From Lachnospiraceae bacterium (lineage in GTDB: Bacteria > Bacillota > Clostridia > Lachnospirales > Lachnospiraceae): DNA of 51,702 nucleotides. Below the pieces are notes generated by a model. That model searched no databases. It had not been told where the DNA came from and saw only the letters and a list, made by a program, of their open reading frames with translations. Positions within the stretch are counted from its first letter, which is position 1; every line of letters starts with the position of its first letter. The translations under genes were made by a program, and so were the position numbers. Shown here in pieces: positions 115 through 4,375 of the stretch. The stretch spans positions 1-51,702 of the forward strand of contig JAAWNY010000018.1 in assembly GCA_022799175.1 (NCBI GenBank). The letters are read 5' to 3'.

Positions 115-157
115 TAAAAAATAGATGCCTCTCCCATATGTTATGGAAGAGACATCT
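115..157 (-). terminator. Rho-independent terminator of the ferredoxin gene
   Basis: Read on the minus strand, a 13-bp stem (arms at 145-157 and 123-135, two G-U pairs) with a 9-nt loop is followed by six T residues (116-121). It lies just past the ferredoxin stop codon. Confidence 0.85.
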
Positions 158-179
158 ATGTAGTCATTGATGGTAAAGA

Positions 180-427
<248 letters not shown>

Positions 428-1378: not shown

Positions 1379-1627
1379 TTATCCAATGGCGCCATGGAAA
1401 GTGCGGGAAATGACCTCATCCTGCTGTTCTTTTGTCAGTTTACAAAAGTTTACTGCATAACCAGATACCCGGACGGTTAACTGCGGATATTTTTCCGGAT
1501 GTTTTTGGGCATCCAGTAAAGTTTCTTTGGAAAATACATTTACATTCAGATGATGACCACCCTTTTCTGTATAGCCATCTAAAAGAGTAACCAGGTTATC
1601 TACCTGAGATTCGTTTGCATGTGTCAT
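1379..1627 (-). CDS. Glycyl-radical subunit of split pyruvate formate-lyase (GrcA-like)
   Basis: An 82-residue protein equal to the C-terminal glycyl-radical domain of pyruvate formate-lyase. It carries [18 protein letters not shown], then [18 protein letters not shown]; the radical glycine is Gly56 in RVSGYAV. It ends RTFHGA-IG, as intact enzymes end RTF plus a few residues. It resembles the E. coli spare-part protein GrcA/YfiD (about 127 aa), but the neighbouring large gene lacks this domain, so here it would be an obligate subunit. It has its own AAAGGAGGATATCTTCA site and ATG, 46 nt after the large gene's stop. It is neither a remnant nor a frameshift: both pieces have complete translation signals. 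Confidence 0.9.
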
Positions 1628-1673
1628 TGAAGATATCCTCCTTTATTGTGTGAATAAGACTATTCATGTGACA

Positions 1674-3767
1674 TCAATCCCGATCCAGTCCGTGCATCAA
1701 ATTTGGAATGGAACAGGCTTTATCGGGACCGCATTCCAGTTCCAGATCCAGATCGCCAGTAAAAAGACGGTCTTCTTTTCCCAGTGCTCCCGGAATGATA
1801 GAGAAAGTATTGGAAATACCATCTTGTGCATCGGAGAAAGGGAGCTTGGCCACAGAAGCCAGGGAAGAAATAGCGCCATGGTTGTCCCGTGTATGCATAG
1901 GATTGGCGCCTGGCGCAAAGGCTTGACCTGCTTTTCTGCCATCGGGAGTGGAGCCGGTGGCCTTACCATACACTACATTTGAGGTTATAGTCAAGATGGA
2001 GGTTGTTGGAATTCCGCCACGATAACAATGATTGCGTCGGATATAATTCATGAAGCTGTGTACAACGTCAACAGCGATCTGATCGACCCGGTCGTCATCA
2101 TTTCCATATTTGGGAAAGCTTCCTTCCACTTTATAGTCCACAACAATACCATTTTCATCTCGAATTGTCCGGACTTTGGCATATTTGATGGCAGAAAGTG
2201 AGTCCGCGACAACAGAAAGCCCAGCGATGCCGGTAGCGAACCAGCGAGTTACATTCATATCATGGAGCGCCATTTGCAGCCGTTCATAACAATATTTATC
2301 ATGCATATAGTGAATGATATTGAGACTATTGACGTAAACGCCGGCTAGCCACTGCATCATGTCATGATAGCGGGCCATCACTTCATCATAATCCAAATAT
2401 TCGGAGGTAATGGGACGGTATTGAGGACCTACTTGCTTCTTGCTGATTTCGTCTATACCGCCGTTGATGGCATACAGAAGACATTTGGCAAGATTGGCAC
2501 GGGCACCAAAGAACTGCATTTCTTTGCCGATACGCATGGAAGAGACACAACAGGCAATAGCATAATCATCACCGAGATTTTCCCGCATCAAGTCATCATT
2601 TTCATATTGGATAGAAGAAGACTCAATGGAGGTTTTGGCACAGAAACGTTTGAAGTTTTCTGGTAAACGTACTGACCAAAGCACTGTCAGATTCGGTTCG
2701 GGAGCAGTGCCAAGAGTAGTCAAAGTGTGCAGGAAGCGGAAGGACATCTTGGTTACCAGATGTCGTCCGTCGATTCCCACGCCGCCGATAGATTCGGTCA
2801 CCCAGGTCGGATCTCCGGAGAAAAGAGCATTATATTCCGGAGTACGGGCGAATTTTACCAATCGAAGTTTCATAATAAAATGATCTACAAATTCCTGAAT
2901 TTGTTCTTCGGTAAAAATTCCTTCAGAGAGATCTCGTTCTGCATAGATATCCAAAAATGTGGAAGTACGCCCCAGAGACATCGCAGCGCCGTTCTGTTCT
3001 TTAACAGCAGCAAGATAGGCGAAGTAAGTCCATTGAATAGCCTCCTGCACATTGCCCGCAGGACGAGAAATGTCAAAACCGTAAATTTCACCCAGTTTCT
3101 TTAGTTCTTTTAAGGCCCGAATCTGTTCGGATAATTCTTCCCGGATACGAATGACATGGGAATACATGGTGCTTCGAGTAGTCATTTTTTGTTCTTCTTT
3201 ATCTGCTATAAGACGCTCTACACCATAAAGGGCTACTCGACGGTAATCTCCAATGATTCTTCCTCGTCCATAGGCATCTGGTAATCCGGTGATGATATGG
3301 CTAGAACGGCAGGCTCGCATCTCCGGAGTATAAGCGTCAAAAACGCCGGCATTATGGGTCTTGCGGTGTGTGGTAAAAAATTCGCTGATCTCCGGATCGA
3401 CCTGATAACCATTGTCAGCACAAGCCTTTTCAGCCATGCGTATTCCACCATAAGGCTGCAGAGAACGTTTAAAGGGTTTATCCGTCTGAAAACCGACAAT
3501 CGTTTCTTTGGTTTTATCTAGATAGCCAGGGCCATGGGAGGTAATGGTGGAAATAATTTTAGTATCCATATCCAGTACTCCGCCTGCCGCTTGTTCCTGC
3601 CGACTCAGGTCCATAACCTGATTCCAGAGAGCTGTGGTATTTGGGGTGGCATTTGCCAGAAAGAGGTCGTTACCGTCATAAGGAGTATAATTTTTTTGGA
3701 TAAAATTGCGTACATTGATTTCTCGTTGCCAGTCTCCTGGGCGAAAATTTCTCCATTCTTGTTTCAT
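1674..3767 (-). CDS. pflB: Pyruvate formate-lyase catalytic core lacking the glycyl-radical domain
   Basis: A 697-residue formate C-acetyltransferase core (pyruvate + CoA to acetyl-CoA + formate; cytoplasmic, strictly anaerobic). The N-terminus ([19 protein letters not shown]) and the active-site pair Cys406-Cys407 in [19 protein letters not shown] are typical. Homology to E. coli PflB (760 aa) continues through [22 protein letters not shown] and then stops: the chain ends with about 30 residues unlike the usual C-terminus (tail [11 protein letters not shown]). The RVSGYA glycine motif is missing and is encoded by the next gene. The start is fixed by GGAGGAAATT just before ATG; an upstream in-frame ATG at 3797 lacks a site. 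First gene of the operon with the radical subunit and pflA. Confidence 0.95.
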
Positions 3768-4171
3768 AATTTCCTCCGTTCCGAGTAGGATCCACAAAAT
3801 GAACTAGGTTGGGAAAGCAAAATTTCCCTTGTTACCTTTTGTGAAAAAAGTATGATCGGGTTACAATTTTAATATACTTCCAAAAATAAAATAAAATTTC
3901 TGGAAAATTCAAGTATTATCTGATAGATTACGAGGTAAATTATAAAGACGTGATAAAAAAACGTCAAGGAGCGTATGGAGAAGAATTTTCTGGTAAGGAA
4001 CAACTGAGAAAAATAGTCATTGTCCAGCTATTTTGTGCGGTATTTCAGGGGCTTGTCAATCTGCTAAAAATATATTATAGTAGATATCAACGTAACTGTT
4101 GAATGAAATGTTTTTGTGAAAGCATTGTACGTTGCGTAGAAATGAAATATGTACAAGAAGGAGGAATTTGT
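3768..4171. other. AT-rich divergent intergenic region
   Basis: About 400 bases between the divergent pyruvate formate-lyase operon and the DUF1858 gene. It holds a clear plus-strand promoter at 4053-4081 and a small inverted repeat GACGT/ACGTC (3947-3966, 8-nt spacer). Minus-strand promoter hexamers for the pfl operon are not clear; AT-rich TATATT/TTAAAAT stretches around 3870-3885 are candidates. No gene seen. Confidence 0.5.
4053..4081 (+). promoter_or_regulatory. Promoter of the DUF1858 gene
   Basis: TTGTCA, 17 nt, TATAGT, about 90 nt upstream of the start codon at 4172. Confidence 0.6.
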
Positions 4172-4375
4172 ATGCAGATCCATAAAGATATGTTGATTGG
4201 GGATTTGGTTCAGGCACATGAGCTGATTGCGCCGATGTTGATGCGTGCTGGTATGCATTGCCTGGGCTGTCCATCTGCACAGGGCGAAACATTGGAGGAA
4301 GCCTGCATGGTACATGGGATTGACTGTGATACGCTGGTATCCGGAATTAATGAAGTGCTGGCAGAGAGAGCCTAA
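4172..4375 (+). CDS. DUF1858 redox-disulfide protein
   Basis: A 67-residue protein of the DUF1858 family, also known as the hybrid-cluster-protein-associated redox disulfide domain. The family motif is seen: an N-terminal helix ([22 protein letters not shown]) then [18 protein letters not shown] with a CxxC pair, ending in a helix ([10 protein letters not shown]). The open frame begins earlier at 4103, but the start used here follows AAGGAGGAATTTGT. In other genomes the domain is found beside or fused to redox and iron-sulfur proteins; its chemistry is not established. Here it stands alone with its own promoter and terminator, divergent from the pyruvate formate-lyase operon. Confidence 0.85.

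Follow-up and report, generated by a model that had tools for sequence, protein, structure and literature searches.

In many anaerobes, pyruvate formate-lyase (PFL) is central to fermentation; oxygen destroys the enzyme at its radical glycine. In Escherichia coli, a free-standing radical domain activated by PflA, GrcA (YfiD), serves a core that is unable to hold its own radical (PMC8683613, PMC12338860; the E. coli results cited here come from the portions of these two papers that were available). In cells, PflB G734A yields formate at an intermediate level with the help of GrcA (PMC12338860). An E. coli core cut at residue 695 and combined with YfiD displayed, once activated, activity like that of the wild type; YfiD binding by the cut core was not measurable, and 32-fold less radical was obtained than with a mimic of the oxygen-cleaved core (0.5 versus 15.9 µM; PMC8683613). 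Residues 696-733 of PflB and the N-terminus of YfiD are both important for binding (PMC8683613).

The window, a stretch of 51,702 nucleotides from a Lachnospiraceae bacterium analysed here as a whole, contains a PFL locus in which genes for the PFL core, the radical subunit, PflA, and a small ferredoxin follow one another on the minus strand (Table 1). The preliminary description of this DNA had claimed a 697-residue core with the Cys406-Cys407 pair but no glycyl-radical domain, and that domain, with Gly56, as a separate 82-residue gene with its own ribosome site 46 nt downstream. Both claims were confirmed. The core covers model positions 2-664 of 744 of TIGR01255 with 1085.5 bits, exceeding the cut-off of 994.2 by itself, while the subunit covers positions 662-742. 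When compared with E. coli PflB (L147; numbering includes the initial Met), the core aligns with residues 12-681 at 63% identity and the subunit with residues 679-756 at 64% identity. Thus, the two chains jointly span the enzyme, with a seam near residue 680. Two features linked to TIGR01255, the Cys-Cys pair and an activase PflA encoded at the locus, are present; the radical domain is not in the same chain, since the core alignment ends at PflB residue 681 and the domain is a separate gene. The subunit matches NCBIfam NF038360 (autonomous glycyl radical cofactor GrcA3) with 166.2 bits, above the cut-off of 158, and scores 92.2 with TIGR04365 (GrcA/YfiD), below the cut-off of 170 and over model positions 66-123 of 126 only. 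The Cys pair is invariant in 47/47 split cores of the structure alignment (30 cores without a valid start codon were excluded, and 47 non-redundant sequences were kept from the remaining 75), and Gly56, within RVSGYAV, in 21/21 aligned subunits. The 46-nt gap between the two genes includes AAGGAGG; its length is not divisible by three, and fusion of the chains by simple readthrough is thus impossible.

The cut precedes the tenth barrel strand (GGHHLNVNV), and the subunit bears this strand together with the radical loop. The earlier placement of the cut at the boundary between barrel and radical domain is thereby refined, the tenth barrel strand also lying on the subunit side. The tail of about 30 residues described as new at the end of the core indeed has no alignment to one-piece PFLs; what had been missed is that it holds a conserved Cys element, for which many relatives have a gene of its own. 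The ferredoxin gene is possibly co-transcribed with the PFL genes, and its product may be the electron donor of PflA. The hairpin downstream of it is, judging by a consensus match only, likely the operon end. Upstream of the PFL operon lies a divergent gene for a DUF1858 protein (window 4163-4375(+)).

Table 1. Features of the split PFL locus in the window (positions are those of the window)
Feature	Position	Strand	Basis
PFL core, a formate C-acetyltransferase lacking the radical domain; 697 aa, start read as ATG	1674..3767	-	TIGR01255
Codons of catalytic pair Cys406-Cys407 in core	2547..2552	-	
Core tail, residues 669-697 and stop; no equivalent in one-piece PFL	1674..1763	-	
Cys motif C679-x5-C685-x2-P688...GLD in core tail	1677..1733	-	profile match to third-protein C-terminus
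AAGGAGG ribosome-binding site of subunit gene, within gap 1628-1673	1637..1643	-	
GrcA3-type glycyl-radical subunit, 82 aa	1379..1627	-	NF038360
Codon of radical residue Gly56	1460..1462	-	
PFL activase PflA (radical SAM), 257 aa	468..1241	-	TIGR02493, 285.3 bits, cut-off 231.75
Small ferredoxin gene	180..350	-	
Terminator-like hairpin, 18 pairs, 3' of ferredoxin gene	121..159	-	consensus match only
Promoter-like site TTGACG-17-TATAAT, 172 nt upstream of core start	3939..3967	-	consensus match only

The assembly of the source genome (G000) comprises 2.97 Mb in 122 contigs and is 91% complete. A TIGR01255 search of this assembly matched the core and the subunit only and returned no further PFL. 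Two further frames, 755 aa each, were found with PF01228, one of them adjoining an activase-like frame; from their sequences, and not from a family match, we read them as putative class III ribonucleotide reductases. A free-standing GrcA3-type frame is present in at least 57 of the 245 genomes sampled within this order (a 94-aa frame at 129 bits in G120 was left out of this number). All 57 were found with TIGR01255 to have a truncated core, which is in pieces at contig ends in two of them (G122 and G066), and the same search, in which three fused cases were included, revealed a second full-length PFL in 0/57. The preliminary description had held the two-part form to be obligatory; with no intact PFL in the source assembly nor in the other 56 split genomes, this is well supported. 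In a later, differently drawn sample, one genome (G739) combines a split PFL with a full-length one.

In a phylum-wide sample of 398 genomes, the GrcA3 cut-off was passed in only four, all with a free-standing domain: the source genome, G023, and two members of another family (f149). The best 80 of 577 loci from a scan with the subunit include those of the named relatives Enterocloster bolteae, [Clostridium] citroniae, Hungatella hathewayi, Diplocloster modestus, and Eubacterium xylanophilum. In 79 of these 80, a core C-terminus without a radical domain lies directly upstream of the subunit, and in the remaining one (L069) a contig ends there. We conclude that sequencing error does not account for the split. 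On a contig labelled Spirochaetales bacterium Spiro_02 (L086), a split PFL was also observed; its grouping with Clostridia would reflect mis-binning or transfer.

In many operons, a scan of the loci for the Cys-Pro part of the core tail outside cores revealed a short open reading frame situated between the core and GrcA3 genes. The encoded third protein has about 75 aa (64-89 aa in the alignment), with the consensus IDDLVxMIDxFMxxxGGHMNIxV ... SxDCxxGxxACxVPTLFEGxD; two Cys and one Pro are invariant in 27/27 aligned sequences (27 of 28 references, L031, whose start is doubtful, being omitted). In single profile comparisons, columns 6-42 of the alignment matched the start of GrcA3 (E 2.5e-9), and columns 53-78 matched the core tails that carry the motif (E 3.7e-8). 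The GrcA3-like part corresponds to the first ca. 35 residues of the protein and stops before the radical loop. The 27 members had no fitting Pfam family and no matching chain in the PDB; in NCBIfam, the N-terminal part of GrcA3 was matched by 20/27 and nothing else was recurrent. The dN/dS ratio was 0.07-0.31 in 11 of the 19 closest pairs, several with high dS values, and dS was saturated in the other eight; the third gene is thus under purifying selection. AlphaFold models were poor (mean pLDDT 66.1 for the core, from a 47-sequence alignment, and 59.6 for the third protein, from 27 sequences), so no docking mode is to be read from them.

The motif is degenerate in some lineages. The third frame ends after CTDC in L021, L094, and L135; the first Cys is missing in L051 and L083, and a single Cys is present in L191 and L193; the Pro is missing in L043, L047, and L067, while L095 ends at the second Cys. 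In 15 of the 16 third proteins of L231-L246 (all but L231, by eye), an extra Cys precedes the pair, in the form GCTDCSRTPLACSVPTL or near (GC-x2-C-x5-AC), and the strand reads GVGHVNV or near instead of GGHMN. A third-protein-like frame with a different Cys arrangement (MNDKEIDDLIKMIDGKMEEGVGRLKVNF..., L228:1815-2205(+)) was observed in G220 on a contig other than that of the PFL operon. The idea that the strand-to-Cys spacing of the third protein equals the strand-to-Gly spacing of GrcA3 was considered and rejected, as, by eye, it holds in L048 and fails in L032.

The Cys motif element is movable between the core tail (cis) and a separate protein (trans). Among 140 loci, 69 lack a third gene and have at least two tail Cys, with core-subunit gaps from -17 to 120 nt (median 36); in another 69, the third gene is present, the tail is without a Cys pair, and the gap spans 219-518 nt (median 279). 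A single-Cys tail was found in 2/140, and no locus had both forms or neither. These numbers include organisms present more than once and seven assignments made by eye (five loci scored by script as having neither form proved to contain the third gene, and two a single Cys); L185, whose core is cut by a contig end, was excluded, and L069 has no core within reach. Counted by genome, 43 of the 57 split genomes have the third gene, 13 have the Cys tail, one (G154) has neither, and none has both. The core tails of all 43 third-gene genomes were inspected and found to have no Cys pair, with no Cys of any kind in 16 of them. In a profile search of the 245 genomes, near-full-length matches to the third protein were confined to these 43, with 0/188 in the genomes outside the split set; weaker matches covered the first half only and, where placed, fell on GrcA3 or PFL, except one in G220. 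The third gene lies between core and GrcA3 in 42/43 genomes. In the other, G244, it is located ca. 370 kb from the core (L227:2416-2625(+)), and in the operon PflA stands between core and GrcA3, with the core first. The split PFL of G154 (L220:155-2470(+)) has no tail Cys pair, and no third gene was found in that genome; the Cys element is therefore not universal.

In a tree of 139 cores (105 split and 34 fused), all split cores are gathered in a single clade of 108 rows with SH-aLRT support of 99, which includes three fused rows (L117-L119). On the set of 101 distinct split core sequences, 59 cis and 42 trans, the state changes eight times, and for the cis label six changes are required by branches with strong support. 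The tail motif and the third gene were opposite in 6/6 independent pairs (sign test p 0.031), where the informative point is the rarity of loci with both or neither, since the loci had been sorted by these very traits, some by eye. Parsimony was not decisive as to the ancestral state, a trans root requiring eight changes and a cis root nine.

The fused rows L117-L119 are the one-piece PFLs of G190, G238, and G110, and their radical domains score near or above the GrcA3 cut-off. A split-only clade without them was not rejected by the AU test (p 0.255). These proteins may have been re-fused or may never have been split. Their linkers have no trace of a Cys tail, and the three genomes contain neither a Cys tail nor the third gene. 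The presence of three fused PFLs inside the split clade indicates that the one-piece form also works in that lineage. A separate clade consists of ten one-piece PFLs of the same order (L163, L166, L168-L170, L172-L174, L176, L177), with CCCVSA rather than ACCVSS around the catalytic pair in the four for which it was printed (L173, L174, L176, L177). Co-evolution of the activase with the split was also considered; a comparison of 82 split and 22 fused-type PflA sequences, with three fused genomes counted twice among the 22 and L069 unsorted, revealed no split-specific feature. The PflA of the fused trio has the split-type changes too, so these follow ancestry.

As a whole, the locus is best explained, and we hold this to be likely, as a working two-chain PFL with a third, Cys element that would serve docking, activation, or redox sensing. 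Most of the barrel would come from the core, together with the substrate site and Cys406-Cys407, and GrcA3 would add the tenth strand along with the radical loop. This subunit would dock on the core, PflA would install the radical on Gly56, the radical would pass to the Cys pair, and the two-chain enzyme would convert pyruvate and CoA to acetyl-CoA and formate. With the radical subunit on a chain of its own, GrcA3 cleaved by oxygen could be replaced by a fresh copy and the core retained.

Such swapping of damaged subunits is plausible. A second GrcA3 was found, among the matches listed, in 7/57 genomes (G228, G160, G218, G184, G175, G148, and G169), in each case on a contig other than that of the sole core found; in G098, a second GrcA3 is within a second operon. 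The extra gene of G184 has a rubrerythrin gene ca. 1 kb away, and that of G175 directly precedes thioredoxin and rubrerythrin genes. These arrangements fit a supply of spare subunits after oxygen stress. Among these extra copies, L181:6881-7126(-) and L182:7234-7491(+) are near rubrerythrin and, in L182, thioredoxin genes, with the neighbours confirmed by Pfam. Those in L178, L179, L180, L183, and L184 (five genomes, two genera) adjoin an apparent stage III sporulation locus, a reading checked with Pfam for one neighbour, in L178.

The natural split enzyme is without both binding aids of the E. coli system: its core ends before residue 696, and GrcA3 is without a long N-terminus. The Cys element, which sits right at the cut, is the obvious candidate to replace them. 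As part of the core, it would allow stable docking or activation of GrcA3, or sensing of the redox state. In trans lineages, the small protein would offer the same motif, probably held on the core by the GrcA3-like strand; that the strand is present in the separate form and absent from the fused-on form suggests this role. In E. coli, the core cut at 695 yielded 2.7 µM radical with YfiD shortened to residues 61-127 versus 0.5 µM with whole YfiD (PMC8683613, from the available part). The double truncation is thus activated better than the cut core with whole YfiD, and a tail is not strictly required in vitro. A redox or metal role of the Cys residues, alone or with docking, is equally conceivable. 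We are inclined, with modest conviction, to view the split PFL as a three-element enzyme, in which a Cys element kept exactly once by nearly every split lineage, as core tail or as strand-plus-motif protein, and exchanged between cis and trans about eight times, would hold, load, or guard the exchangeable radical subunit.

Several alternatives were weighed against this view. The Cys element might be a redox or metal switch and not a docking device, with a metal or a disulfide blocking or releasing GrcA3 upon oxygen entry. The invariant Cys, Cys, and Pro of 27/27 third proteins, the further Cys (GC-x2-C-x5-AC) in 15/16 of those from L231-L246, and the occurrence of the third protein only with split PFLs (0/188 other genomes) all agree with a switch, and small iron-sulfur subunits do occur in other glycyl-radical enzymes, namely 4-hydroxyphenylacetate decarboxylase and benzylsuccinate synthase. 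However, the third protein fits no Pfam family, and a single Cys or an atypical pattern is found in some lineages. With Pfam and NCBIfam, libraries that may lack models of iron-sulfur subunits of the HpdC or BssB/BssC type, no match to such subunits was obtained. We consider the switch a tentative alternative, somewhat less than probable. It is unlikely that the third protein is instead a dummy radical subunit, whose GGHMN strand would take the place of the tenth strand in a core that is empty or damaged, or in the dimer's second protomer, until GrcA3 comes, averting collapse. Its first ca. 35 residues match the start of GrcA3 and end before the radical loop, in agreement with such a function, and PflB has been reported to show half-site radical content in vitro, with in-cell data against it (PMC12338860, in the part available). 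Yet the strand mimic is missing wherever the motif is on the core tail, i.e., in 59/101 distinct split cores, and is therefore not needed in general.

The remaining alternatives concern the enzyme itself. If the locus were decaying or accessory, GrcA3 would be a repair part only and pyruvate would be cleaved by another enzyme. GrcA does occur beside intact PflB in E. coli (PMC8683613, available in part), a PFL may be missed in an assembly that is 91% complete, and G739 has both forms. Nevertheless, the absence of a full-length PFL from 57/57 split genomes and the strong conservation of the core, with the catalytic pair invariant in 47/47, make this explanation very improbable. A sequencing or assembly artefact, or readthrough to one chain, can be given practically no credence, as nothing was found in its favour: the 46-nt gap is out of frame and has its own ribosome site, the same order is found in 79/80 named relatives (best 80 of 577), and in many relatives a third gene intervenes.

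The preliminary description left open whether this arrangement was already described, and it is not unknown. The best PDB matches of the core are 38la and 38lb ("Formate acetyltransferase"), and neither chain was matched when the radical subunit was used as the query. Identity to 38lb is 68-75% for split cores, 70-72% for the fused PFLs that fall within the split clade, together with their kin, and 64-69% for other one-piece PFLs; 38lb therefore goes with the split clade. No Cys motif is alignable in 38lb, where the alignment reaches residue 696 only and the tail beyond it is out of view, and 38la ends at LGKED. Since the subunit is named GrcA3 in NCBIfam and radical-domain-less cores are in the PDB, the split itself is already a known kind. 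The NF038360 entry, as it appears in the search output, names the subunit only, with nothing on a truncated partner or a Cys element. A search of the open-licence PMC literature, which is weak evidence of absence, returned no paper on a naturally split PFL, GrcA3, or 38la/38lb, and the available parts of PMC11528403 and PMC13252398 contain nothing on split PFL. We regard as new the Cys element and the third protein, which is unnamed in Pfam and NCBIfam and has no PDB match.

Compared with one-piece PFL (E. coli PflB, TIGR01255), the enzyme described here has the same catalytic residues and 63-64% identity over both chains, but it consists of two chains, has a new core tail, and carries its Cys motif in cis or in trans. 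GrcA/YfiD of E. coli is a spare part for intact PflB, with which it coexists, and has a disordered N-terminus of ca. 60 residues; GrcA3 is without such an extension and is the only radical domain found here, no intact PFL having been found in the 91%-complete source assembly. A lineage that keeps the breakable piece permanently apart from the costly core would be a natural version of the E. coli spare-part repair, and the Cys element is a candidate for the natural answer to the poor binding and activation of the artificially cut E. coli enzyme, as these are described in the available part of PMC8683613.
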